Shown: positions 3,201 through 59,364 of the stretch, piece after piece
How positions within the stretch are numbered: the first letter of the stretch is position 1
Layout of the letters: each line of letters begins with the position of its first letter
Assembly: GCA_903813345.2 (NCBI GenBank)
Contig: CAIIXF020000007.1
Location: 36,300,538-36,364,537, forward strand
Direction: 5' to 3'
Source of the DNA: Owenia fusiformis
Taxonomy: Eukaryota > Annelida > Polychaeta > Sabellida > Oweniidae
Length of the DNA stretch: 64,000 nt
The notes under the pieces: generated by a model
What the model was told of the DNA's origin: nothing
Databases searched by the model: none
The model's input: only the letters and a program-made list of their open reading frames with translations
Made by a program: the position numbers and the translations under genes

Positions 3201-6200
3201 TATTGGCAAATAAACAACATTCGTTAAATTTTCTAAAAATTAGGGGAAGGGAAGACAATTGTTGATAGTGCTCACATTATGGACACCCCGTATAGAGGTT
3301 GAGACTAACACAATGCATTTGTTGGTTCTAGATATTCAAGAAACTAGAAGATTGCAAGCAATCTTACGGAGGCCCTGTAGGCATTGCCAATTAGAAGGTC
3401 AAAGGTTAAATATCAAATTTAAGATCATATATGAACTCCAGACAACTTGTAGATGATTTTAAAAAAGATTTGGTCGAATTAATGCAAGTTGAAATTTGAC
3501 CTTGAAAAATTCTGAAATTTGACCTTTTTTCAGTTTTTGAGCTATAATATCTCAAAACTGGAGCCAAATTTTAATAGATAATCAATTGCTAATATGTGTA
3601 GAACCTTTAGTGGAATATATATTCTGACTTTCAGTAAAAAATTGATTTGTAGTCTCCAATTTTGAGAAACTTAGAAAACACAGTTTGTGATTTAGTTTGA
3701 TGACCTTGACCTTTGACCTTGCAAATTTCACTTTTCTAGACCTCAGTGGGTCCTTCGTGATCAAATATACCTAAATTTGAATCCAGAAAATCAATTTGAA
3801 AAAACAACTTTTTTTACCTTTCGAAGGTCACCGAAGGTCAACCAAAGGTTGGAGGTCAAAAGTAAGGACATATTTGAGTTCCTGAGATCTTGTAAATGAT
3901 TTTTTAACAAAAATCTGGTTCATATGAAGCAAGTTGAAAAATAACTGATTTTTGCCGATTTTTGACGTCAAATATCTCAAAAACGGTAAAAAATTAATGC
4001 ATACATATAGTGAGCAATTTGTAGAGAATGCTTATATCTAGTTACATTTTAATTCATCGCAAGAAATAATGAAGTATGAGGACGAAATCTGAGAAACTTA
4101 GAAAACACAGTTTGTGATCTTGTTTGATGACCTTGACCTTTGACCTTAAAAATTTTACTTTTTTAGACCTCAATATATCTTTTCTGGTTGAATAAACTTC
4201 AATTTGAATCCAGAAAATCGATTTGAAAAATCAACTTTTTTGACCTTTCGAAGGTCACTGAAGGTCAAGTAAAGGTCATAGGTCAAAACTAAGGCCAGAT
4301 TTGAGTTCCTGAGATCTTGTAGATGCATTTTAAAAAAAAGTTTGGTCAATTTAGAGCAAGTTGAAATTTGACCTTGAAAAATTTCGAAATTTGACCTTTT
4401 TTCAGTTTTTGAGTTCTAATATCTCAAAACTGGAGCAAAATTTTAATAAATTGTCAATTGCTAATATGTGTAGAACTTTTAGAGGAATACATATTCTGAC
4501 TTTCAGTAAAAAAATTGATTTGTAGTCTCCAATTTTGAGAAACTTAGAAAACATAGTTTGTGATTTTGTTTGATGACCTTGACCTTTGACCTTGCAAATT
4601 TTACTTTTTTAGACCTCAGAAGGTCTTTTGTGAATAAATGTACCTAAATTTGAATCCAGAAAATCGATTTGAAAAATCAACTTTTTTGACCTTTCGGAGG
4701 TCACTGAAGGTCAACCAAAGGTCAAAGGTCAAAAGTAAGGTTAGATTTGGAATCCTGGGAACTTGTAGATGAGTTTTAAAAAAAAAATTGGTCAATTTGA
4801 AGCAAGTTGAAATTTAGTCTTGAAAAGTTTCGAAATTTGACCTTTTTTCAGTTTTTGAGTTCCAATATCTCAAAACTGGTACACAATTGTAATAAATAGT
4901 CAATTGCTTATATGTGTAGAACCTATAGAGGAATATATATCCTGACTTTAATTCAAAAATATTGATTTGTAGTCACAAACTTTGAGAAACTTAGAAAACA
5001 CAGTTTGTGATCTTGTTTGATGACCTTGACCTTTGACCTTACAAATTTTACTTTTTTAGACCTCAGTGGGTCCTTTGTGATCAAATATACCTAAATTTGA
5101 ATCCAGAAAATCAATTTGAAAAAACAACTTTTTTTACCTTTCGAAGGTCACCGAAGGTCAACCAAAGGTCGGAGGTCAAAAGTAAGGACATATTTGAATT
5201 CCTGAGATCTTGTAGATGATTTTTAAAAAAAAATCTGGTTCATTTGAAGCAAGTTGAAAAATGACCGATTTTTGCCGATTTTTGACGTCAAATATCTCAA
5301 AAACGGTAGAAAATTAACGTGTACATATAGTGAGCAATTTTTAGAGAATGCTTATATCTAGTTATATTTTAATTCATCGCAAGAAATAATGAAGTATGAG
5401 GACGAAATCTGAGAAACTTAAAAAAGCTTAGATTTGACCTAGATTTTGAACTTGACCTAGATAAAAATTCCTTTCCCGCCAAGTTCAGCCCAGGTCCTTA
5501 GTAGGACTATGTAGTAGCTAGTTGAAAGTTAGTCGGAAGTAGGAGAAAAAGAGGGAGGAAGAATAAATAACTAGACTTTGGAAATTGAACGAAGTTCAAT
5601 TTCAGACTCCAGATCTAGACTTTTTTAAGCCCAGTCATCTAAAATAAGCCGAGTCATCCAGAATAAGCTGAGTCATCCAGAATAAGATGGATGGATAAAA
5701 TAGGAAGGTAGGATAGGATAGAATGGGAAGGAACGATAGGATAGAATTAGAAAGAAGGATAGGATAGAACAGAATAGGAAGAAAGGATATGATAGGAGAG
5801 GATAGGAAGGATAGGAAGGAAAGGATACGAAGGAAGGATAGATAGGAAGGATAGGATCAGATAGGAAGGATGGATCGATGAATTTTTCAATATTTTCTTC
5901 TCTACTCTTGACTTTCTATCAGGATACCATCAGATCAATTTTCCGAAATTTCAAAACGCCATAACTTCCGAACCGGTAGTCGGATCGAAATTTGATTTAA
6001 AGATTCGGATTCCTGACAAAGTTCTACCCCTAATTCATACGTTAAATTTGGCGAATTTTTATTTTGACCTACTTTTGGACACGCCATAACTTCGGAACCG
6101 GAAGTCGGATCGAAATTTAGTTTGCAGATTCGGATATCTCAGAAAATTCTATTCTTAATTCATAACTCAAACGTTAAATTTGAAGAACTTTTTATTTTGA

Positions 6201-21050: not shown

Positions 21051-21057
21051 CGTGCAC

Positions 21058-21242
21058 AGAAATAGTTCAGGACAAGACTGTTGCAGAAGTAGTTCATGAT
21101 AAGACAATTGCAGAAGTTTAGAACAAGACTGTACAGCAAGAGTAACTCGTAACAAGACTGTTGCAGTAGTTCATGACAAGACTGTTGCAGGAGTAATTCA
21201 TGACAAGACTGTTGCAGACGTTCATGACAAGACTGTTGCAAA
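21058..21242. repeat. Minisatellite abutting the SLC38A11 start codon
   Basis: Seven imperfect units of 20-27 bp, best form TTCATGACAAGACTGTTGCA. The last unit runs straight into AAAATGTCT, the start codon. Probably transcribed as 5' UTR. Confidence 0.85.
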
Positions 21243-24200
21243 ATGTCTGAAAAAACAGTAGAGGGGACTACCTCAAATGGGGTACAGCTTGAACTGATGA
21301 AGGATGCTAGTAAAGTACCTACTTATAATGGGGAGGATGCCATAAAGGTAAGCTCTAGAAAATAACACTAATTTCAACAATCAGATTATTACATGTATAC
21401 ATATAATATAATATTTTGAGATATAGTTATGAATTGCTTAAATAAAAGTTTTTTTCTTTATATGAAGAATGTATTAGTATTAAGAACTAACGCCAAAAAT
21501 TGTTTCAGTACTTATTTAACAATATTGTTTTAGATTCCTATCAGATATTGGACTTGATTAAAGATAAATGCAATGCCTTCTCTTCTTAAGAACCCCTGTC
21601 CTTCCTTACAAGTACTGTACATTGCCCCCTTTAGACTACCTTCACTATATTCCATGTTTTATGTGAATAATATTTTGTAAAAATGTCCATGTATCCTAAA
21701 ATGCTCTCTTGCAACTGAAAGATTCTGATTCTAGATTCTGTTGAAATTAATGAAACCAATAAGCTGATAAGTACTTATGCAGGCGTTGTTTTCTAAAAAT
21801 ACTGAGTCCAGGGCTTAAATCCTTAAGTTGTCAATGTCCTTAACATCAAATCAAAATGAGAAATTCTTCTGAATCTGGGCTTCAATATGAAAACATTCAG
21901 AAATTCTTAAATTTCTAATGCAGTTTACATTTTACATCAGATGAGCAGAGCTGTCAAGTGTCCCGCCAGTGGCGGGATTATCCCGCAAGTTTGATCAAAA
22001 TTAGGCTAATTCGCGTGTCGCGCATTGTCCCGCGAAGTCCCGCAAAATGTGGCTTTGACCTCCGCGAATTTCCGAAATTGTTGCAATCCCCTATATTTTG
22101 ATTATCTTATCTGATATAAGAAGCTAAGTTTTTGCACTTTTGAGGAGTAAAGTTTACCTAATTTTAAGTACCTAGCATATGCTGTTGTTTGGTATCAAAA
22201 TAAAGGGGAAGGGTTCAACTTTCATTTTAATTACGAAAATAGGGATGTAGGTCACAAATAGTTCCAACGTTGGCCTTTTTACTACCCGTGTGGCCTTCAT
22301 CTCAGAACTGAGCAAATGTTAGCAAACGCGAGTTACAATAAATGTACGCTGATATCTAGAAAGGGTTTGTATAAAAAACCGGGTACCGGGTAGTAAATCC
22401 TCCATGCTGGGTTCAAACTTGGTACCCGGTACCCGGTCAAAAAAACGGGTACCCAAAAAACGAAAAATACGAATATATAACATAATTAGATTATGAGAAA
22501 ACGTGTAAGATTTGTTTTGAATTTGCAAAAATGTATGTAACATGATTCAAAATTGAGCTAGAAGCTTCAAATAAAAAGCATATTTTAAGGCACTTTTCTT
22601 CCTCTATCGTTATGGCCATATTTTCATTGGTTATGGGGGGGGGGGTGCGATCGCACCATCGCACCATCGCACCCTCTCCTGGCTACGCCTATGACATTGT
22701 AAGACATAACAATTTACAATTCAGTGGACATTTTGTCATAAATTGGGATAACTTAAATTATGATTAATAATCAAAATCTTACACGTTGCATCATGCAAAT
22801 TAACACACGTCACCTCTCTGCTAAAGCAACGATAGCTATTTACAGATTTAAATCATAATCAAAACAATTCACGTACCAACATACGAACTATTGAAAATAG
22901 AGTAAGATTGATTTGTCTTGTTTTTCAAATTGTCTTGCAATGTCATTGGCGTAGCCAGGTGGGGGTGCGATTGCACCCCCCCCCCCTTCATTACCAATGG
23001 AAATATGACCAAGATGATAGAGGAAGAAAAGAGCCTTAAAATGCTTTTTATTTGAAGCTTCTAGCTCAATTTTGAAGGAAGTTACATACATTTTTGTAAA
23101 TTCAAAACAAATCTTACACGTTTTCTAATGATCTAATTATGTTGTGTATTCGTAAATTTCGTTTTTTGTTTTTTTTCGACCGGGTACCAAGTTTGAACCC
23201 AGCATGGAGGATTTACTACCTGGTACCCGGTTTTTTATACAAACCTTATCTAGAAAATTAACCTCATTCCCTATAATTTGATGTAGATTAATCGAACCCC
23301 TATATCATGGGCTTTCAATTGAAAGCCCATGCCTACAGTATATGAATAGGTACATTTTAATATATAACATTATGGGGGTAAGCGTTTCATAGTTGGTCAC
23401 GACGCCAGAAGTGCAAAGTATTGTTCCGAATTTTTGAATTTCGTGTTAGATTACGGTAATCACACCTGAAGCATGGTTTTTGTTTTTGATAAATTACAAT
23501 AAAGTTTAATAATATTCCTATGCGTATTTTGTGAAATTGTGTTGACGTTTATTTAAGTTACAATGTAACGGTGCATTATATTTGATTAATCAGTATCTGA
23601 AAGTTTGATTTAAGTACTTCTACACGCTTTTACATTAGTCACAATCACGCAAATCCCTTGAATGTCCCGGGACATCCTGCAAATTTATGTGGATGTCCCG
23701 CGAAATCCCGCAAATTTAGGGCACTTTGTCTAAAAAATCTGTCCCTCTATGAAGTTTTTGGTGATACACCTGTTAACTGTCCCGCAATTAGGGTGTTTGT
23801 CCTTCGAATGGTCCCGCGAAATCCCGCGAATTTGATAAAAAAAATCTCCTATTAGCGCAATCACGCAAATCCCTTAAATGTCCCGCAAAATCCCGCGAAT
23901 TTAGTAGATGTCCCGCAAAATCCCGCGAATTTTGGGCACTGGGTCTAAAAAATCTGTCCCGCGAGAAAATCTTTAGGGGTTGACAGTACTGGATGAGGGA
24001 CACAACTATTTCTGATCATAAATTCTTATTTTTAGGCTTCTGAAATGAACAGCTCTAATTCCGAGCCTGTGGCTAATATGGATACATCAGGACTCGTTGA
24101 TGAGGATGCATCTAACGATCCACATAAAGATGTAGAGACTAGCAACATTCCCATGGCAACGTTTAACATTATCAACTCTATTATTGGATCGGGACTTATT

Positions 24201-27200
24201 GGTAAGAGATATGGGATTTATTCATCTGAGAGCTTGACTCAGAAAATAGTTTGGGAAATTTTTCAAGGAAATTTTAAATGAATGAAACGGGAAGTGGGGA
24301 AACACTAAGTGAAAAGTACTAAAATCATGCATCGTACAAAATACAGGCCTGTAGCCAGGATTTGCCAAGGGGCGGTTCAATTTTCAAAAATTTCCAGGGG
24401 GGGTTCACATTTGACAATTTTGGCCCAAATATGACTAAAATCACTTGAGAAGTGCTCAAAATGGTGAAAAACTGCATGATTTTGAAAGAATTTTTGGCTG
24501 GGGGGGGGGGGTCCGAACCCTGCTAACCCCCACCTGGCTACTGGCCTGAAATATTACCATAAACTCAAACATGAGTGTAAATGACTAATTTGTATGATAA
24601 AATACATTCAGTGAATGAACATGTAATTTTGACGTTGATGAAATTCAAGCTTGAATCATATGAAAAGTGTATACAGTTCTACATAACATGTATTAATATT
24701 TTAGGCATTCCATATGCTGTCCTACAATCAGGCATCGGCCTTGGGGCTTTCCTCCTTGTGTTTGTAGGTGTAATCACAGGTAAATATATAGAGGTTATTT
24801 ACTGAGAGGGATATAATATGTGTTTTATTCAGAGAGAAAATATGATAATTTGAGGATTGGAAGATGGAAAGTGATTTTCGAATAGCAGGTGTTCGAATCA
24901 GATATATATACATTGAAAGAAATCCCTGGGGATTGCTGATGAGTGGGTGATATATATATATATCTCCTGCTCACCTCCGTGGGAGGTTTATATAACACCC
25001 CCTCACCTCAGATATCGATTATATTCATATTCCTTCATGCTATTACTAGGTATGAGATAAACAAGTTGTTTATCGCCGTGTTTATTTGCAGATTATTCCC
25101 TTAGTTTACTGATTGAAGGTGGAATTATTATGAAAACTAGGAGTTACCAGGTAATTGATTTATTTTTTTAATAATAAATGTAAATTATTAATACCTTATT
25201 AAATAAAGCATGTATTATTATATTCTAGATACGCTACTTTTTGTGTAGAAAAAACTCAACTCTTATCCAGCTGATAGATCGTTTGCCTGAAATATTGACT
25301 ATCAAATGTTATGCTTTATTAATGAGTATTAGTTCATATACCTAAGAGATGTATTATGTACCAAATGAAAGTCATGATTTTGTTTGATCAATTTATCGAT
25401 TAATTTATTTGTAAACTATTTCTTTGGATGTGTTTGGTTTTTGAATTTTAGGAGAACAATGTGTGTATTTGTTTTGTGAATGTTGCCTTGATTCAACAAC
25501 ATTGTATGAAAAATTGCAGTATGATTTGTAGATCTAAGCAAATTTAAATAATTGTGTAAACATTTCCTTGAAATCAATTAGATTTATGATTTTTTCAAGT
25601 AATTATATTGTACCTTTTATGAATTTTAGGGGCTTGCAAGAGCAAGTTTTGGAAAAATAGGATTTGGTGTAATCACTTTATTGCAATTCACAACGCCCAT
25701 ATTTGGTAAATTTGGATAAGTTATAAATTCAGGGTTCCCACAAGTGGTGTCATATACATTTTCATTTTTGTTCTTATGTGATTAATGTTTGTTTCACATT
25801 TCACAAATAACCACTTTGACCCTTGACTTTTGGCACCTTTAGTTTCATAGTCTTAAGTTCTTTTCCAATGGTATGCACTGATGGGGTGATTCATGTGGAA
25901 AGATTCATGTTTTTAAGTTTACTGGCCACAGGGTTCTCATATATATTTTTGCTCCCATCATTTTATGACTGCAGGTCTAAGGCCATTAAAATTAATTTTT
26001 TTCTATGTAAAGAGTTTTATTGATAGTACATGTCAAGAAATCTATTATTGTGCCTATTCTGAATTCAACATAAATTATATAGGCTAAATCATCGCTAAAT
26101 CAGCTTTATAAAAATCTAGGGGATGTTTAAATTTTCCGCTTATACCCTCAGTGTTTCATTTAGCAACTTTAAATGCATGAATAGTCAAGAACACATTATA
26201 TTAAGTTCTTTTGGATTTTTTTTTATTTATTTATTTTTTTATTCAGCAGTAATCAATACATCTAATTTCTTGCAAGAGTTTTTTTATTACTCACATGGTG
26301 AGCCCATAATATCATCACCTTATATATCTATCTGCAATTTTTTGGGCAATAGAACAATAAATTTATCATATCCATAATATCCACGTAATTTACTTCATTG
26401 GTTCCAGCTCCTCCTTTTACCTAATTTTGGTAATAGCTTTTTTTTACCATGTGAGCCCAACAAACAGTGCCATCTTTACATAAAAAACAATAAGCATCTT
26501 AACCCAATATTACCCTTTAATCTAACTGACCATGTAAATGATAATATATCCTATATTTTCATGCTAAGAGATAAAGATCCTGTGTTACATGCTGATGTCA
26601 CTGTATTACATATAACTGTATATAATGCTACAACATCCAAATCATCTTATTTTCTTCTGGAAAAATTTAAAACAACATACATGTACATGTAGAGTATAAA
26701 AGAATAAAGAACATTGAATAAGTTCTCTTAGAATACAGACTCTTGGCTGCCCGAGAAATTCAGTAAATCACTGATTATTTACTTGGCAGTAATTACAAGG
26801 TACATGTATTGTATTACTGTAAGGATATGTCCAGTATCAGGAATCAAACATCTTCTCAATCACTATTGACATATTCACCCTAGTTGCAGGGTTTATTCTG
26901 AATATAACTATTTACATATTCACCCTAGTTGCAGGGTTTATTCTGAACATAAACTATTTACATATTCACCCTAATTGCAGGGTTTATTCTTAATATAAAC
27001 TATTGACATATTCACCCAAATTGCAGGTTTTATTCTGAACATAAACAATTGTCATATTCACCCTAATTGCAGGGTTTATTCTGAAAATAAACTATTGACA
27101 TATTCACCCTAATTGCAGGGATTATTCTGAACATAATCAATTGACATATTCACCCAAATTGCAGGGCTTATTCTGAACACAAACAATTGACATATTCACC

Positions 27201-30200
27201 CTAATTGCAGGGATTATTCTGAACATAATCAATTGACATATTCACCCTAATTGCAGGTTTTATTCTGAACAAAAACTATTGACATATTCACACCCAAATT
27301 GCAGGGTTTATTCTGAACACAAACTATTGACATATTCACCCTAATTGCGGGGTTTATTCTGAACAAAAACTATTGACATATTCACACCCAAATTGCAGGG
27401 TTTATTCTGAACACAAACTATTGACATATTCACCCTAATTGCGGGGTTTATTGTGAACATAAATTATCATGAAATATTCACCCAAATTGCAGGGTTTATT
27501 CTGAACATAAACTCTTGACATATTCACCCAAATTGCAGGGTTTATTCTGAACACAAACTATTGACATTCACCCAAATTGCAGGGTTTATTCTGAACACAA
27601 ACTATTGACATGTTCACCCAAATTGCAGGGTTTAGCAAAGGAGACCTTTGGAAACATAGGATATGGCGTCGTCTCTGCCACTCAGTTTTCTCAGCCTTTC
27701 TTCTGTGAGTTTTAATGTCTCAACTTCTAAAAATGTTTAACTCAGAATAAAACTTGGCAACCTGTAACTCATTAATTAGACTCATAGGATATTTAAGAGT
27801 GAACAACTTGCTTGCATAATTTTTCTAGTTCTTTGATTTTTACCAACATTTTGTTTTATGACAAACTTTTGTTGGTGAAAAAAGAGTAAGAGTTACAGGT
27901 TGAGCTAGTTTGTTTGCAATAAATGTTGCTTGTGCGCTTGGATGTCTAATAAACAGATTAACTTTAAAACCTGCATAAGTGGAACACCTTTGGCCCCTTG
28001 AAAAGTACTTACTTTTCATTTAACATCATTTAACATCGAGCCAATGGGAAGTGTTCCACTTATAGATATGTTGGATTAACATGTTGACATAAGACTTTGG
28101 TGTGACTAATAGAAAGGGGGAGGGCAATACAACAACCACCAAGATTAAACTTACTATCTACTAAACTAAATGCTAACAATAAGCCTTGCTTTATTTGGTG
28201 TGCTTTTTAAACTTATGAAACATTTCTATCAGCCATATCAGCTTCCTTCTTATAAAGTTAATGAATATGTGCTTCATGGAATATGGCATCTGCGAATGGA
28301 TGTTGACCTTTTGACCCTTATGGACTATAAAGCTGGATTTTGTCTGTCTCGTATTATTTGAGACTGAATATATTTTACGTTAAAAATATTGGGAATCTTT
28401 TTGGTTCTCCAACTTATAAGACTATACCTTGCATTTGGTGTTCATGAGCAACCCATTTGGCTTATTAGTAATGATTGTGTTATTTGTTTTATTGTCTGTT
28501 CCTTATTAATGGTTTATTGAATGACTGTTAGATGTTAACAATTAGACAAACAGAGTATCTTTTGCATATCAGATTTTGGAAATTCATGAATTGTTATCTG
28601 AGTTTTCTGTTTTTGATATTAAATAATTCTGAAAAAAGTAAATTACTTTTTAATAATTTGAATGATCGTGCTTGACAGACAAGATCTGAGTGTTTTTTGT
28701 TTGGTTTCTCAAAATTCTTTCCACTTCAATATCTTGCATCAGCATAATCTAGCTGTACTGTGTAGCTGTACTGTGTTGCTGCACTGTGTAGCAGCTGCAT
28801 AGTTTAGTTGTAGTGCAGTTGTACATATAACATCTAGATATGAATAACATTAAATCAAATATATATTTGAAATAACACACATCAAAAATCCTACACATCA
28901 AATGATGACTCATCATTAATTGCAATAACTAATATTTTCCATTTTTCCATCTTACAGTTCTTCCTATGTCATCAGAATCTGTTCTTTCCTTAATTTGGTG
29001 GTTGGTAACCATGGTAATGGTAGCCTAGTAACTGTGATGCAGTTATAATTGGGAGTGGGTTAAAGGTAATGTGAACGCATGCCGAATACTTAGCATTTTA
29101 TAATTTAGGAGTGTGTACTTCACAATCTTAATATGTGCAAATTAATTTTATCTGAAAATTAACAGCACACAATAGACACACACTATTATTTATTTCCAAA
29201 TTAAAAGCAAAGTGTTGGTATTATCTGAAATTATTGTTAAATATATTTTATATTGATGAAGTCTCATTCACATGAAGGAAAAATGATTAGAGTTTGTTCA
29301 AAGAACTACCCCTGTTGTATCCCACATTTAATTGCAAATTACCTGTATAATTATAGAAATACCTTATTTGACATAAGGAGTGTCCAACCCCAATAAGGCC
29401 CCCTGTACTCTATTTCTATTTGATTGACTCTCAGCAGTGCCCCCTGTACTCTATTTCTATTTGATTGACTCTCAGCAGTGCCCCCTGTACTCTATTTCTA
29501 TTTGATTGTCTTTTAGCAATGGTAGCCTACAACGTCATCATAGGGGATACAATTACAAAGCTTGTCAAGAGGGCAGGAGGAGGTACTGTCATCTTTACAT
29601 CTTTCAAAATAACTATAGTATATCAGGCCTGTAACCAGCGGAGGGAGAAGCTGCTCCCCCCTGGCCAGAAATTCTTTCAAAATCATGCAGTTTTTCATCA
29701 TTCTGGGCACTCTTCGCATTATTTTTTGCCAAAAATTTACAAAAAGCTCCCCCCTTGGCAAAACCGCCTCCCCCCTGATAAATCCTGGCCTGTATATCTC
29801 AATGTATTGTATTTTAAGCACATGGAATAAACACAAACAATATGCTTTTATAAGAATTGAGAATGATAAAATTGAGTCTAAACTTCAAAGAGTTTGGCAG
29901 CCAATCATAGAAATAGACACAAGAACTTACATTCCTGTCGTAAGACAATCATTATAAATAATGAAATCAAAGAATGTCGCTCTTATGCAAATAATTTTAT
30001 CTTCAAAAGTGAGCTAATTTATTCTTAGAAAAATATTTTGTTCTAGACATATAAAAATAGGATTATCATATTATTTGTTGTCATGTTTTATACGTGTGGC
30101 ATTCGGTACTGCTTTTGGGCCCATATTTATCATGTACAATGCACATCAATGATATAATATGTTCAAGTTCAATAATTAATATGTAATTTTTGAGCATAAT

Positions 30201-33200
30201 TTTATTATTAATACCAATATATATATCAATGTTGGTTTCACTTTGGGCATTTTCTCAGTTCTGTACTCGATCATTGAATTTCATTGACAACCCATTATCT
30301 CCAATTGTAATTTGGTATATTTTTCAAAAAATTACCAAATTAAATAGAATGTCACTGTTCAATGCCACCAATTTGAAAGTATGTGTACCTAAAAATTAAA
30401 CAGTTAGTGATAAAATAGGTTAATTTGAACAGATATCTTTTCCAAAGGGACATCCTTTCTGAAGAGATATCCCCTATGAAAATAGATCCTCTCTTAAGAG
30501 AAATCCTCTCTAAAGAGATATCCTCTGAAGAGAACTCTCTTTAGAGTAATCCTCTATGAAAAAAAATATCCCCTATGAAAAGAGATCCTCTCTTAAGAGA
30601 TATCCTCTCTGAAAAGATATTCTTCCTGAAGAGAAATCCTCTCTTTAAAGATGTGCTCTCTGAAAAGATATCCTCTAAAGAGAAATCCTCTCTTAAAAGA
30701 TGTGCTCTCTGAAGAAATATCCTCTGAAGAGATATCTTGCCTGAAGAACACCCGTGTCTTCACCTGTATTAAATGTCTTTCTGTATGAACACCTACCTAC
30801 AGTGACCACTGTAGCTCCATAGATGTTCAATGTGCATAGGTTTTTCCTGTATTAACAGACAAAGGACGATTCTCGGTTTGGAGAACGAAGTTCATCAATC
30901 TAAATGAGCATTATCCCTGCTTCGGACAAATTTGATTTTTTTACATAATATAAATTTGAATGTTTTCTTTTGAATAGTCATAATTTAATTTGGGTAATAT
31001 TTCTAGATTTTTCGCAAAAAAATATTAGCGCAGTACACTGATGAACTTCTTTCCCCAAATCGAGACTTGTATTTTATTGAATCGGTCTAATTGAGCGTTA
31101 TCCCTACTTCAGACCAATTTGTTATTTTTACATCTTGTAGATTTGAATGTCCTCTTTTGAATATTCATAGTTTAATTTGGGTAATATTTCTATATTTTTC
31201 ATGAAAAAAATTATTAGCCAAGGACACTGTTCTCCAAACCGAGAATCGTCCTTTCTCAAAAAATGTCTCAGCGATTCACAATTGAAGAATGACTTGGGTC
31301 AAATATAAAAAAACCTGATCAGGACTCCAATTTTAAAAAGGTTTGTGTCCCAGGGACTCCAAAAAATTTTGTTTAGCGCTAGCACTAAAACTTTATACAG
31401 CGAATACTTATTAAGCCACAAAAATGTGTGTGTTTACTGTAGTAGGTGTTCACTACAGATGGGGCAATTTATACAGAAGTCTGTAGAGTATGTGTGGAGG
31501 AAGGATGTCCACTAGAGACAGTTCACTCGAGAGAGGTGTTCACTAAGACAGGTTTTACTGTACATGTTTAACCAAATGTTGGTCTTTGTTGTTGTTGTAG
31601 AAGCAATCAAGAACTCTGTGCTGACTAACCGACATTTCATAGTTTTCCTGGCTACTCTGTTTGTGACGCTACCTCTTTCCCTTTACAAGAACATAGCAGC
31701 TCTAAGCAAGGTCAGCTTACAATTTCTATGTATTTCTAGTGATTTTGTATAGCCCATTATCATGTCACCACAATAAGTGGTGACACATTGTTATTGTCTC
31801 CAGTTTTTTTGTTGACAGTTTTCGGCAGTTGGTGTACGGTGTCTGGCATCTGTAACAAATGGCAGGTGGTGACATTTTGCATGTTAATGCCTTATATTTC
31901 TTTGTTTTTTTTCAGTGGGGTCTTGCCTCTATAGTGTTAATCTCTTCACTGATAGTCTTCATCATTATTAAGCTGGCCCTTATGGGAAATAGCATGTAAG
32001 TAAAATAGCATTCTTTGGAGTTAAACTAGCACCAGGGAATCAGTCATTTTCCTGATTTTTTTGCCAAAAAGGCTTGTTGTCAGTTTGTTTTTATTCTTTA
32101 ATTTTAAGCAGTATGGTAAGACTGGCATCTAGTCAGTTTTAGACTGGCATTTTGTCATGATCAGACTGGCATCTAGTCATTAATACAAAGATACACATCG
32201 GAAATTTAAGATGATTACTCACCCCTTTGGTATTCCTTAAATTAATTAAGAGTGGGGGGTTAGGGTGATTTCTAAAATTGCTCAACGTGTATGACTGAAG
32301 CATGTTTTTACTCAGATGTGTACAGGTTGGTACATTAAGTGTATTATTAAATCAAAAAACTATAATATAGATGTCATGCGAGTATGAGTACATCACAGTT
32401 GTTCAAAAGTTGTTAAATTCTTATTTATAAATATAATATAATCACAATAACATATAATCATTTATGTTTCAGACCAGATGTTGAGGGTGACTGGGACTTT
32501 GGTAAAGGGTCCTTTGTTGTAGCGATTACTATAATGTCACATGGTATGTCAGTTTTCTAATTCGAGTAAAAACTGCTCAATGGAACCTTTTGATAGTTCA
32601 ATAAAACCTGAAAAGAGGAACAGCTCTTTAAAGATGTAATAAAATGGCTTTACTCGATTTAGATTATACTGTATTCTTTCTACCTTACCATATTAAGGTC
32701 ACTCACTGAAATTGCTAAATATAACTTTATTATGTAATCTGAGATATAAAGTCAGCACTTATCAGTTTTTGCTGCAAAATTGATTTCAACTTTAGAACAA
32801 CCTTTTCGTGTCATGTGACAGGATTGTAAATTGATGAATCAAAACTTTATCAATTTGCCGCTAAGTATGATTATGTAAATAAGAATAAAACCTTGGCCTT
32901 TTGACTGCGAGTTATTAAAGGATTTAACCCCTGGACTCAATGCGTGGTCATGCAAAGGTTTGGAAACAACACGCCTGAGTGGAATGAAGCAGCTAATGTG
33001 AAAAATCCATTTATCACCATGACAACTGTTTAACTAGTGACCTTGCATGTGTTATTGATATTTCACACACTGTTCATTATGTGAATACTCTATTCGGATT
33101 AGCTGGAATCGGACCTTGCCTAGCTTTGTGTGAATACAATTTAAAGTGAACCACTATCTTTAAAATAGTTTTAACTAAGCGTAGGTGGAGATGAGTAAAT

Positions 33201-35803
33201 TTCAATTCATTGATTCATCCCAGTGTTGTAGTCTATGAATGTAAAATATGAATGTTAGATGACAAAATTGGGATTGAGAAAAAAGTGTTCACATGGGGAT
33301 GTGTTTGTATTAGAGGGGTGTTCATATATATAGGATTTACTGAAAATCAGACTTCACTAATTCTCTACCCAAAAGATCCACCGAATAAACATTGCTTATT
33401 TCAAGGGTACACTAGAATCTGCCTTATCTGTACACCACTTGGACCATTCAAAGGTCTTTAGATTGACAGGTGTTCACATTTCACTATTTTTAAAGATTAG
33501 AATATTGAACCAAAAAGTGTTCATATGAGAGTTGTTCAGATTAGTGAGGTGTTCAGATATACAGGTTTTATACTATATATTTAAGTTAACATAAACTATG
33601 TGCATTTTTACTTCAGCTTACATATGCCATCACAATGCATTTCTTGTCTATGAGTCGCTGTCTGAGAGAACACTTAACACTTGGAACAAAGTGACACATC
33701 TTAGCTGTTTATACTCTGCCTTATGTTTGATTCTAACAGGAATCTGTGGTTATTCAACATTCAAAGGATATACACAAGGTAATAAACAAATGGGTCATAC
33801 TCAGTAAGGAAGTTTTCGAGAATAGTAACTTTTAGAAACAGATATTTTTCTAAAATTGCAATAATTACTTCAAGGTAAACAATGATGAAATAACACACTT
33901 TGAAAATATATTTATTCTTGCAAGTTTTATAGTTCCCTGAAATATATGATTGAGAGGTCTATTCTATTCTGTTTAGTACTTTTTCAGCATTCAACTTCAT
34001 TTTAGATCATCATTTTTTGCATTTTAGGTGATTTACTTGAGAACTATTGCTACAAAGATGACTTCGCAAATGTTTTCCGTGTTGTCTTCACAGTTATAGT
34101 TGCCTTGACATATCCAATAGAATGCTTTGTCACAAGAGAGGTGAGTTTATCCCACATTTATAGTTGCCTTGACATATCCAATACAATGCTTTGTCACAAG
34201 AGAGATGAGTTTATCCCACAGTTATAGTTGCCTTGACTTATCCGATAGAATGCTTTGTCTAGAGAGAGGTGAGTTTATCCCATAGTTATATTTGCCTTGA
34301 CATATCCAATAGAATGCTTTGTCACAAGAGAGGTGAGTTTATCCCACATTTATAGTTGCCTTGACTTATCCAATACAATGCTTTGTCACAAGAGAGGTGA
34401 GTTTATCCCACATTTATAGTTGCATTAACTTATCCAATACAATGCTTTGGCACAAGAGAGGTGAGTTTATCCCACATTTATAGTTGCCTTGACGTACCCA
34501 ATACAGTGCTTTGGCACAACATTGACTCTACATTCAAAAACGCATAGCATCCAATTAAGCAAACATATATAGTCATACAGTAGTCAATTTTTTTTTTGAT
34601 TCAATTAATTCTCACTGTTGTTTCATTGTTTCAGGTGATTGAAAATGTCTTCTTTTCTAAGTACAAGGAGTCTACAATACGACATGCTATTTTGACAATA
34701 GTACTAGTTGGAGTTGCATTCGCTGCTGCTACAATAACAGACTGTTTACATATAGTGCTCTCTATAAATGTAAGTAATGGATTCTCAGAATGTAAACATA
34801 TTGGATAGAACAAATAAAAAATGGATAGATACCAAGTACACACCTGAAAACAAACAAAATGTGTTGATGGAAATCACCTGATTTTTTGAGAAAAGAAGCA
34901 AATGTAACAGATTTATTTTTGTCATGAGAAAGTTTACAGATCAAAATTGCAAATTGGATTTTCTTGCTATAAACAACTTCTCTCTCATCACATTTTGTTC
35001 TTTTTAACTAGAAAATAAACTCAGATATTCCAAACAATGATTTAGCATACTAATAAACAGTGTCCAACAACCTCCCTCTTTTCAGGAACCACATTTCTAC
35101 AAAAACACATATTTTGTTTTTCTAAATTTTTTATTCTCAAAATTTGAAATTAGATACATGGTTAACACTTTTCTTTAAAAAGTGTGTCAGCGTGAAAAAA
35201 GTTTGTACTCTGAGTCAAATAGAAAAAAATCAATGTATAAAATCTTTTACTCAGTCTAAAGAGAATAAAACCAGTTATGCTTCACAAGATGTACATATAT
35301 GTTAGTTTATAATTCAGTTTTTTTATATTTTGATAACATAAAATAAAATTCTTGTGTAAACAATTTTTGTGTCTCATGGTCATAAAATCGTATGTTTGGA
35401 GTAAATTGATTTTCAAATATGTCCACAGAAAACCTGTAAGGTAATGAGTATTTAAGGGTAATGTTGAACAAAAATATATTCAAAATTAAATTTGATTTTA
35501 ATTTTTCAGGGATCTATATCTGCCGTGCCTTTGATTTTTATCTTTCCTGCACTGTTTTACATGAAAGTCCGTGAAGAAAAGCTACTCCATTGGAAGAACA
35601 TCCTCCCCCTGTTTCTCATATTACTTGGAATATTTCTGTCTATTGGTGGAATCTTCTTCAGTATACAGTCAATATTATCAGGAGACACATGCAGCCATGG
35701 GGAGGAACTCTGGTATTGTAAAGAGCCTATTATTGGCAATATCACAAGCAGTATGCCTAGCATTACAACATTAGCAAGTACTAGTACTACAAGGATACCA
35801 TAG
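21243..35803 (+). CDS. SLC38A11: SLC38A11-like sodium-coupled neutral amino-acid transporter, complete, 503 codons
   Basis: SLC38 proteins are 11-helix membrane transporters that move neutral amino acids, usually with sodium. Coding exons: 21243-21347, 24036-24201, 24705-24779, 25092-25150, 25630-25705 (5a) or 27629-27704 (5b), 29517-29582, 31601-31710, 31916-31995, 32473-32543, 33617-33778, 34028-34140, 34635-34769 and 35510-35803. All introns are GT..AG and phases close to one 503-residue ORF with either exon 5. Matches to vertebrate SLC38A11 in order: FNIINSIIGSGLIGIPY (helix 1, with the substrate/ion-site N residues at about 79 and 82), VAYNVIIGDTITK, RHFIVFLATLFVTLPLSLY, YICHHNAFLVYESL, GYSTFKGYTQGDLLENYC, LTYPIECFVTREVI, and a C-terminal C-x-HGEELWYC. 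The N-terminal cytosolic tail is about 75 residues. The exon 7 donor (AAG|GTCAGC) is weaker than the others. Several exon edges lie in tandem repeats, described separately. A 5' UTR exon further upstream cannot be excluded. Confidence 0.93.
21946..23991. mobile_element. 2.05-kb inverted-repeat element in SLC38A11 intron 1, interrupted by a nested element
   Basis: Ends CAGAGCTGTCAAGTGTCC (left) and GGGGTTGACAGTACTG (right) are inverted. Both flanks carry GATGAG (21940-21945 and 23992-23997). Sub-terminal regions are made of repeated TCCCGCGAATTT / TCCCGCAAAA units. The right end is 45 bp before exon 2. Element 22361-23246 is inserted inside. Confidence 0.8.
22361..23246. mobile_element. Fold-back element with about 330-bp arms and 8-bp target duplication
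   Basis: Starts AAGGGTTTGTATAAAAAACC and ends in its complement. Inverted identity continues for about 330 bp on each side (for example CAGCATGGAGGATTTACTAC, GAAGCTTCTAGCTCAATTTT), including poly-G/GCGATCGCACC. TATCTAGA flanks both ends (22353-22360, 23247-23254), fitting hAT-type insertion. No ORF. Confidence 0.9.
24344..24548. mobile_element. CAGGCCTGTAGCCAGG MITE, copy 1
   Basis: Perfect-ended inverted repeat: CAGGCCTGTAGCCAGG left, CCTGGCTACTGGCCTG right. The interior includes AAAAACTGCATGATTTTGAA and G-runs. In SLC38A11 intron 2. Other copies: 29624, 44762, 63788. Confidence 0.85.
25630..25705 (+). CDS. SLC38A11: SLC38A11 alternative exon 5a
   Basis: Acceptor TTTTAG|GGG and donor TTTG|GTAAAT bound a 76-nt exon (25 codons plus 1 nt) encoding GLARASFGKIGFGVITLLQF and TTPIF. 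This corresponds to the third transmembrane region of SLC38A11. The last base G joins exon 6 CA to give alanine. It competes with exon 5b (27629-27704), which has the same length and phase. Confidence 0.85.
26872..27628. repeat. 17-copy, 46-bp minisatellite duplicating the exon 5b splice acceptor
   Basis: The unit is built on TATTCACCCTAATTGCAGGG plus TTTATTCTGAACATAAACT. The 17th copy ends in the real acceptor AATTGCAG|GGTTTAGCA of exon 5b. Fifteen of the 16 upstream-and-final acceptor-like cores keep CAG apart from two copies that read GCGGGG (about 27345 and 27437). Confidence 0.95.
27629..27704 (+). CDS. SLC38A11: SLC38A11 alternative exon 5b
   Basis: Acceptor AATTGCAG|GGT and donor TTCT|GTGAGT bound a 76-nt exon encoding GLAKETFGNIGYGVVSATQF and SQPFF, homologous residue by residue to exon 5a (12 of 25 positions identical). 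The last base T joins exon 6 CA to give serine instead of alanine. Its acceptor is the last copy of a 46-bp minisatellite. Confidence 0.85.
29399..29521. repeat. 3-copy, 41-bp repeat duplicating the exon 6 acceptor
   Basis: CCCCCTGTACTCTATTTCTA plus TTTGATTGACTCTCAGCAGTG at 29399, 29440 and 29481. The third copy has mutated to TTGTCTTTTAG|CAATG, the real acceptor of exon 6. Confidence 0.93.
29624..29792. mobile_element. CAGGCCTG MITE, copy 2
   Basis: CAGGCCTGTAACCAGCG left, AATCCTGGCCTG right; interior AAATCATGCAGTTTTTCATC. In SLC38A11 intron 6, 40 bp after the exon. Confidence 0.8.
30440..30745. repeat. AGAGATATCCTCTC minisatellite
   Basis: About 18 imperfect units of AGAGATATCCTCTCTGAA, internally palindromic. 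In SLC38A11 intron 6. Confidence 0.85.
30861..31254. mobile_element. MITE with perfect 26-bp inverted termini
   Basis: AAAGGACGATTCTCGGTTTG plus GAGAAC at the left is perfectly inverted at 31229-31254. The interior is a tandem pair of about 190-bp units (GAGCATTATCCCTGCTTCGG / GAGCGTTATCCCTACTTCAG). No clear target duplication. Confidence 0.85.
31430..31565. repeat. Dispersed GTGTTCACT element, copy 3
   Basis: GTAGGTGTTCACTACAGA, AGAGAGGTGTTCACTAAGAC and GGTTTTACTGTACA match the copy at 62680. Ends 35 bp before SLC38A11 exon 7. Confidence 0.6.
31755..31893. repeat. GTGGTGACATATTG family, copy 1
   Basis: ATGTCACCACAATAAGTGGTGACA ... AGGTGGTGACATTTTGCATG. Further copies at 38630-38745 and, with an insertion, 39885-40375. 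In SLC38A11 intron 7. Confidence 0.7.
32185..32400. repeat. Dispersed repeat shared with 52010-52215
   Basis: GGTATTCCTTAAATTAATTA, GTGATTTCTAAAATTGCTCA and ATAGATGTCATGCGAGTATG match 52060-52200 in the same order. Confidence 0.65.
33240..33575. repeat. Dispersed GTGTTCAGAT element, copy 4 (two partial copies)
   Basis: GTGTTCACATGGGGATGTGT at 33288 and AGTGAGGTGTTCAGATATAC at 33542, with CCAAAAAGTGTTCATATGAG between. In SLC38A11 intron 9, ending 40 bp before exon 10. Confidence 0.6.
34099..34520. repeat. 7-copy, about 64-bp repeat duplicating the end of exon 11 and its donor
   Basis: TTATAGTTGCCTTGACATAT..CAATAGAATGCTTTGTCACA..AGAGAG|GTGAGTTTATCCCACA. Copy 1 is the true exon 11 end (34099-34140). 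Six further copies follow at about 34162, 34222, 34285, 34350, 34414 and 34477; four keep GAGAGGTGAGT exactly and one reads GAGAGATGAGT. Confidence 0.95.
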
Positions 35804-36286
35804 TCCTTTAAGTCATGGGGAGGAACTCTGGTATTGTAAAGAGCCTAGCATTGGCAATATCACAAGCAGTATGCCTAGCATTACAACATTAGCAAGTACT
35901 AGTACTACAAGGATACCATAGTCCTTTAAGTCATGGGGAGGAACTCTGGTATTGTAAAGAGCCTAGCATTGGCAATATTACAAGCAGTATGCCTAGCATT
36001 ACAACATTAGCAAGTACTAGTACTACAAGTATACCATAGTGCTCTCAAGTCATGGGGAGGAACTCTGGTATTGTAAAGAGCCTAGCATTGGCAATATCAC
36101 AAGCAGTATGCCTAGCATTACAACATTAGCAAGTACTAGTACTACAAGGATACCATAGTCCTTTAAGTCATGGGGAGGAACTCTGGTATTGTAAAGAGCC
36201 TAGCATTGGCAATATTACAAGCAGTATGCCTAGCATTACAACATTAGCAAGTACTAGTACTACAAGGATACCATAGTGCTCTCAAG
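35696..36286. repeat. 5-copy, 118-bp repeat of the SLC38A11 C-terminus, stop codon included
   Basis: CATGGGGAGGAACTCTGGTA ... ACAAGGATACCATAG begins at 35696, 35814, 35932, 36051 and 36169. Only the first copy is translated; the TAG at 35801-35803 ends the ORF. Copies 2-3 and 4-5 share variants, so a 237-bp dimer was duplicated. Confidence 0.95.
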
Positions 36287-36389
36287 TCATCATCTAGATA
36301 TGGAACCTGGCATATAACCAGAGTTAATTTATAACAAACATTCCATTACAGTGTGCTCATTATATAAATAATATAAATATTGTGGGCAT

Positions 36390-57990: not shown

Positions 57991-59364
57991 TTAGCTTAAC
58001 CTCTCCAATACATGTCCGCCACATACGTTCACTGTATGCTTATCTGAACCAGTAATCGGATTGTAAGTTAAAACAAACCACACCCGCCAATAATACTTTT
58101 TCTCAAGTGAACTGAACAACCCTCTGCTGAATTTTTCATTACTCATTTCGGAATTATCCCTGGCATAATCTAATATTTCCTCTTTAGACTGGGCATGGTA
58201 CTTATTCATAACAGCGACGTCAATCTCTTCTAGTTTTTCTCTTACTTTTTGTACTCGTGTTTCCCATTCTTTCTTCCTTTCTTCTTTTATGGTTGTAAAA
58301 GCATTCATTTCGTAATAAGCAGCTTCAAGTCGAATCGCTTGGAAAATTATATCCATAATCCCAAGAAGAAAATCTTCTGTCTTCTTGCGATCATTTTTTG
58401 TGTACCTCATTTAAACGGCCTGTCCAAGATTCTCATTAAATGTACCTCCTGGGTTAACTATTGCCTGGTACAATTTTGTGCCTGCAACTTATATAGTTGC
58501 TGTCGTAGCTCTTTATAAATAACTCTTTCCTGTTTCCTGATGACGCAGTACTTTTATAAAAAAGACGATATTCTTCCTCCAATGCACCGAGTGCTGTTTC
58601 TATTTCCCCAAATTGAATCGCTGTTTCAGTCCACTTGATTAATCGTTCAACATCATCAAAGCGGGAATCTACTCGGTCGAAGTGGTTGTCAATTTCTTTC
58701 ATCATATTTTTCATAAATTTCATTTCATTTCGTAATAAGCAGCTTCAAGTCGAATCGCTTGGAAAATTATATCCATAATCCCAAGAAGAAAATCTTCTGT
58801 CTTCTTGCGATCATTTTTTGTGTACCTCATTTAAACGGCCTGTCCAAGATTCTCATTAAATGTACCTCCTGGGTTAACTATTGCCTGGTACAATTTTGTG
58901 CCTGCAACTTATATAGTTGCTGTCGTAGCTCTTTATAAATAACTCTTTCCTGTTTCCTGATGACGCAGTACTTTTATAAAAAAGACGATATTCTTCCTCC
59001 AATGCACCGAGTGCTGTTTCTATTTCCCCAAATTGAATCGCTGTTTCAGTCCACTTGATTAATCGTTCAACATCATCAAAGCGGGAATCTACTCGGTCGA
59101 AGTGGTTGTCAATTTCTTTCATCATATTTTTCATAAATTCCAACTCTGCAGATGGCACGAATGTCATAACAAGGCCAATGAATGGACCCAAAGCGCCAAG
59201 AAACCCTTTCATCTCTGTCGCAACTTTTGTTAATGTTTCATGATATTGTGGTCTGCTATTAAACCCCAAATCTCTTTCCCAGTTTGCAAGCCTTTCTTGA
59301 TCGCTTGTTTTTCTGCAACGGTGATGCTTTCAGCTTTTGGCACCAAGGCCAAAATAAACACCAT
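57991..59364 (-). pseudogene. Rapunzel-like protein gene, main part, broken by frameshifts, a stop and an internal duplication
   Basis: Reading leftwards from ATG 59364: a signal-peptide-like start (MVFILALVPKAES) continues as ITVAEKQAIKKGLQTGKEIW, then loses frame between about 59255 and 59232. The next frame (59269-58874) gives ETLTKVATEMKGFLGALGPF and SAELEFMKNMMKEIDNHFDR, typical of rapunzel-like proteins, whose function in invertebrates is unknown. After YDSNYIS a second shift leads to YQAIVNPGGTFNENLGQAV, then an in-frame TAA, then MRYTKNDRKKTEDFLLGIMD and a coiled-coil-like basic segment to the stop at 57991. The segment with the second shift and the TAA is present twice because of a perfect 420-bp tandem duplication. 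A polypyrimidine-AAG site just before 59390 could be a splice acceptor for an upstream exon. The C-terminal segment appears displaced to 53796-54071. Unknown introns or sequencing errors could account for some lesions. Confidence 0.6.
58304..59139. repeat. Perfect 420-bp tandem duplication inside the rapunzel-like gene
   Basis: Bases 58304-58719 and 58724-59139 are identical at every position compared, with period 420 (140 codons). The copy spans the central coding region, including one frame lesion and an in-frame TAA. Confidence 0.97.

Follow-up and report, generated by a model that had tools for sequence, protein, structure and literature searches.

Tandem arrays at the exon edges of an SLC38A11 homologue in the annelid Owenia fusiformis resemble lancelet mirages

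Background

How do several edges of a single gene come to lie in or against tandem repeats, and does their number call for a special mechanism? The question is raised by a stretch of 64,000 nucleotides (C7:36300538-36364537, referred to here as the window) in the 498 Mb genome of Owenia fusiformis, an annelid marine worm. The original prediction for this locus held that the start region, two acceptors, one donor and the stop of one gene each lie inside a separate tandem array that copies the edge itself, and suggested a shared cause such as repair slippage or selection for spare or decoy splice signals. We located the arrays with TRF and then set their units against the edges of a gene model, compared the edges with repeat density in the gene and in a sample of the genome, and compared the arrays with systems known from other organisms.

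Results and discussion

Gene model and product

The gene comprises 14 exons on the plus strand (21243-35803; Table 1) and has an open frame of 503 codons whichever of exons 5 and 6 is included. Its product is an Aa_trans protein (amino-acid transporter), and most of the named relatives among the first 120 of 433 bear the name SLC38A11. On these sequence comparisons the gene is an SLC38A11 homologue. The best relative among the matches listed is a partial protein of 476 amino acids from O. fusiformis itself (P0001), which matches 95% of the query at 100% identity and breaks off within copy 1 of the 118-bp array. P0001 is compatible with the start, acceptors and donors of the gene model, and because the two are identical over the covered query, use of the same splice sites is implied. 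The Owenia annotation was built from RNA-seq and ab initio models (PMC9977687). The mean identity of P0001 (0.439) is the lowest of 19 aligned homologues, that of Lingula P0008 being 0.441, and would fit weaker constraint on the gene.

Exons 5 and 6 are of equal length and have the same phases, 13 of their 25 residues are alike, and each retains all four residues of that stretch on which the 19 homologues do not vary (exon 5 was compared by eye). Use of both exons shifts the frame, so that a message would carry only one of them, and we regard the two as a strong candidate for a mutually exclusive pair. It is the second exon of this pair, exon 6, whose acceptor lies in the 46-bp array. Docking-selector RNA pairing between the array and the intron behind exon 6 was considered and rejected: there are 15-nt matches, but shuffled sequences reach the score (P 0.08).

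Table 1. Exons of the SLC38A11 homologue and tandem arrays at its edges (positions in the window)
Feature	Position	Strand	Basis
Exon 1, coding part, start codon at 21243	21243..21347	+	gene model; agrees with P0001
Exon 2	24036..24201	+	gene model; P0001
Exon 3	24705..24779	+	gene model; P0001
Exon 4	25092..25150	+	gene model; P0001
Exon 5, candidate mutually exclusive with exon 6, 76 nt	25630..25705	+	gene model; unused in P0001
Exon 6, 76 nt, first 6 nt inside 46-bp array	27629..27704	+	gene model; used in P0001
Exon 7	29517..29582	+	gene model; P0001
Exon 8	31601..31710	+	gene model; P0001
Exon 9	31916..31995	+	gene model; P0001
Exon 10	32473..32543	+	gene model; P0001
Exon 11	33617..33778	+	gene model; P0001
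Exon 12, last 52 nt inside first 64-bp array copy	34028..34140	+	gene model; P0001
Exon 13	34635..34769	+	gene model; P0001
Exon 14, coding part, stop TAG 35801-35803	35510..35803	+	gene model; P0001 ends within the array's first copy
Degenerate 24/51-bp array, presumed 5' UTR, ends at ATG	21057..21244	+	TRF, unit alignment
46-bp x 16.7 array at acceptor 6	26862..27634	+	TRF, unit alignment
41-bp x 2.7 array, 100% matches; diverged continuation to ~29520	29398..29508	+	TRF, unit alignment
64-bp x 6.7 array at donor 12	34089..34519	+	TRF, unit alignment
118-bp x 5 array at stop	35696..36290	+	TRF, unit alignment

Five arrays, four of which copy an edge

All five predicted arrays were found by TRF, and the copying of the edge was borne out at acceptor 6, at acceptor 7 (in the diverged end of its array), at donor 12 and at the stop. 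The start codon, however, is abutted rather than enclosed: the 5' array stops two bases into the ATG and its units do not contain it. The 46-bp array has 17 units with the acceptor region of exon 6, of which the last is the real one, and the AG is kept in 14 of the 16 others. The 41-bp array consists of two units followed by a diverged third that carries the real acceptor of exon 7, just past the end of the TRF call. In the 64-bp array the real donor of exon 12 lies in the first copy; GTGAGT is kept in four later copies and the GT is lost in one, while the last copy is truncated. The 118-bp array holds five copies of the last ~36 codons and the stop codon, the first of which is read while the others lie 3' of the stop. 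None of the unit lengths 41, 46, 64 and 118 is a multiple of three. If the 5' array is transcribed, ATGs at 21096, 21173, 21200 and 21224 would provide upstream starts of short ORFs.

The prediction that the arrays are unrelated in sequence holds. For all ten pairs of units the score falls in the range spanned by 40 shuffles of that pair, with the pairs 24/46 and 46/64 at its top, and a common origin of the five units is rejected. Matches within arrays range from 100% (41 bp) through 96% (118 bp), 91% (64 bp) and 89% (46 bp) to 69-78% in the 5' array, and these unlike percentages suggest that the expansions probably differ in age.

Relation to lancelet mirages and other known systems

No described class of this kind was known to the original prediction, but one exists. 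In lancelets, such arrays have been termed mirages, and they are reported in Adh3 (Canestro et al. 2002, as cited in PMC3087553) and the globins BflGb6 and BflGb9 (PMC3087553), and further in PGBD5 and TnC (PMC3902484). Lancelet mirages have units of 10-72 bp and 150-160 bp, vary in length between haplotypes, and occur with regular mRNA (PMC3087553). Taking a mirage as an array with units of tens to ~160 bp that span and repeat a splice junction, we find this size in the 41-, 46- and 64-bp units at splice edges, and a spanned and repeated junction at acceptor 6, acceptor 7 and donor 12. The start and stop arrays contain no splice junction of the gene model and are only analogous. We thus interpret the three splice-edge arrays as putative mirages in the lancelet sense, and the stop array as apparently the same thing at the 3' end.

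The likeness to the lancelet cases extends to minisatellite-like tandem duplication of an intron-exon boundary at either a donor or an acceptor, and to splice signals that are kept in many but not all copies. In contrast to the lancelet examples, the present case is in an annelid and involves three splice edges in one gene with a sister array at the stop codon. A literature search for mirages under that name returned lancelets only, with no annelid report found.

Two further systems are comparable. In intron gain by AGGT tandem duplication (potato RdRp, PMC4974935) the duplication also carries splice signals, and AG|GT is found at the edge of the 64-bp unit; the Owenia arrays, however, occupy intron sequence or lie 3' of the stop, and the frame of the gene is open. 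Human internal tandem repeats in segmental duplications (PMC2812944) show that minisatellites can sit at exon-intron borders and alter exon/intron structure. Unlike those repeats, which change exon or intron length between paralogues, the Owenia arrays do not lengthen the predicted protein.

Surplus splice sites

The arrays contain 22 intact surplus sites, comprising 14 exon 6 acceptors, four exon 7 AGs (two units with two apiece) and four exon 12 donors. When these were tried singly in a message with exon 6 and without exon 5, none of the 22 gave a full-length protein and all led to a premature stop. The proposal that the copies are spare splice signals is thereby contradicted. Scores of surplus and real sites are comparable: 1.5-4.5 compared with 3.1 for the acceptor of exon 6, 1.2-3.2 compared with 2.7 for that of exon 7, and 8.1 for both surplus and real donors of exon 12. 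Cells would therefore have to choose the exon-proximal copy by context, presumably through exon definition. The edge used in P0001 is the exon-proximal copy, and this public protein is, as a protein record, consistent with use of the proximal sites.

Edges and repeat density within the gene

Repeats cover 16.5% of this gene compared with 6.3% of 200 kb sampled from the genome (20 stretches on ten contigs), and the densest sampled 10-kb stretch reaches 39.6%. In a shift test of the gene's 28 edges, four lie in arrays compared with 2.9 (window) or 4.6 (gene) expected, and with a tolerance of 10 bp five do so compared with 3.2 or 4.9. Over three score cut-offs P ranges from 0.15 to 0.67 and is not significant. 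Placing eight arrays at random in the gene gives 2.65 arrays with an edge compared with four of eight seen (P 0.24). When arrays are barred from holding or lying in a whole exon the expectation falls to 1.45, with P 0.04 for at least four, the number seen, and P 0.005 for at least five, though four were seen in that test. If the genome density of 5.8% is taken as it stands, four edges have P 0.08 and five have P 0.02; with the rate of ~1.9% per edge in the genome sample described below, P is 0.002 for four of 28 and 0.0002 for five of 28. Measured by the low rate in the genome, the SLC38A11 homologue is thus an outlier. It is, however, rich in repeats and was chosen post hoc, and its own repeat density accounts for most of the excess over the sampled rate. 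The number of edges hit does not exceed local repeat density.

Exon edges elsewhere in the genome

As a control we sampled edges from the genome by homology, with 20 hits each to Aa_trans, myosin and p450. The Aa_trans set is the 21 PF01490 hits less the window's own gene (L041); the myosin set is 20 of the best 21 of 92 hits, one with six stops having been skipped; and the p450 set was picked by hand from 106 hits, with intronless-looking ones left out and a few from one gene cluster. Two of the 120 edges were not callable (L034, L056), several called edges score low, and some, such as L022, might instead mark a start, a stop or the end of an intronless gene. Among the remaining 118 edges three lie in repeats, compared with ~7 expected from the 5.8% cover of 340 random pieces of like length. 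By family, these are two of 20 exons for Aa_trans, one of 20 (weak) for myosin and none of 20 for p450. In two or three further cases (L067, L082, L049) an array starts close by, 8 to 22 bases beyond the edge as called.

An ab initio exon caller trained on the homology hits provided a second sample. At threshold 14 it makes 51 calls compared with four on shuffled sequence, and one of 94 edges lies in repeats compared with 5.9 expected; the figures are two of 140 compared with 7.4 at threshold 12, and none of 60 compared with 2.4 at threshold 16. These counts are lowered by leaving out exon calls lying mostly in repeats (eight at threshold 14, nine at 12). The caller misses weak exons: it recovers three of the 12 internal exons of the present gene at threshold 14, five at 12 and ten at 8, the last including one wrong acceptor. 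Combining both samples, four of 214 edges lie in repeats compared with 12.8 at 6% (P 0.003; binomial figures were computed with 120 and 214 edges). Sampled edges are, if anything, depleted in repeats, which is what selection against most such events would produce. The original prediction had allowed that a genome-wide overlap no higher than repeat density would refute it, and in the present sample of the genome overlap elsewhere is at or below that density.

Two of the sampled Aa_trans exons carry clear mirages. In one (L027, C11) the acceptor, together with ~40 bp of exon, is present four times, the units measuring 57 and 66 bp. In the other (L038, C9, minus strand) a 40-bp x 17 array repeats the donor, and its first copy adjoins the exon. 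The myosin case (L061) is a weak 17-bp x 2.2 repeat over a called donor. Both unit lengths of L027 (1324-1559) are divisible by three and the units contain no stop in the frame of the exon, so that inner acceptors could give in-frame variants. Separately, 12 successive myosin-head matches at G000:C9:37986009-37994334, all to one stretch of the profile (~18-84), form the pattern that a cluster of alternative myosin exons would give.

Origin of the arrays

We consider it very probable that the arrays reflect ordinary minisatellite growth, tolerated beside exons in a repeat-rich, divergent gene, with no new splicing device involved. Several independent expansions would have occurred at different times, perhaps through replication slippage or unequal exchange, and the duplicated segment would by chance have spanned an exon edge. 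The message would stay normal while splicing or termination uses the copy beside unique exon sequence, and the other copies would end up in an intron or the 3' UTR, absent from the protein. Being invisible in the protein, such copies may be tolerated under purifying selection, and the array would be free to grow. It counts against this reading that both clear mirages found elsewhere belong to the same protein superfamily as this gene, as do the high number of edges hit relative to the sampled rate and the placement test with whole exons barred. A mutational hotspot tied to exon edges, such as repair slippage at splice-site sequence, would favour arrays at borders; in its favour are the coincidence of four or five edges within a single gene, the same placement test, and two clear mirages among 20 Aa_trans hits. 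Yet the units have no sequence in common, and both genome samples fall below the ~6% density, so we judge a hotspot distinctly unlikely.

The similar scores of surplus and real sites, and the premature stop that follows from every intact one, would also suit functional decoys, which compete with the real site and yield products that are degraded, so that copy number tunes the amount of protein. Such an effect would most plausibly operate at exon 6. However, stops are expected by chance in out-of-frame units, arrays are not over-represented at the edges sampled elsewhere, and pairing between the 46-bp unit and the intron that follows exon 6 falls short of significance; we regard decoys as unlikely. 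The extended proposal, that decoy sites divert part of the transcripts to decay, so that the array length of an allele would determine how much transporter is made and, at exon 6, the ratio of two mutually exclusive isoforms, seems to us highly improbable. Neither a decoy role nor a cause specific to this gene has direct support. It might finally be asked whether the arrays are assembly artefacts, since the region of the 46-bp array is matched once in the assembly, with no second allele to confirm it, and P0001 is partial and breaks off in an array. But scattered substitutions and small indels distinguish the copies, and P0001 lies on a contig of another length (39,792,004, compared with 39,776,147 here) and agrees at the edges it covers, so that an artefact is scarcely credible.

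Other features of the window

Intron 1 contains an inverted repeat of ~100 bases (22356-22480 and ~23130-23260), perhaps a foldback mobile element. Stretches with 'agtggtgacat' recur near short palindromes at ~31766, 38634 and 39890, as noted by eye, and may represent a small mobile element. A satellite-like array of 446-bp units (4.2 copies) occupies 3400-5259. At 58304-59139 there are two 420-bp copies with 100% matches, overlapping minus-strand open frames at 57991-58410 and 58874-59329 that have no Pfam match at E 0.01.

Conclusions

Neither in this gene nor at the sampled edges does overlap exceed repeat density, and the count set against that density is a warning that such coincidences need no special mechanism. 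Putative mirage arrays are here seen in an annelid, with several in one gene. Owenia would be tractable for asking how spliceosomes choose among many near-identical sites, and its arrays would let one ask whether such arrays feed intron gain.
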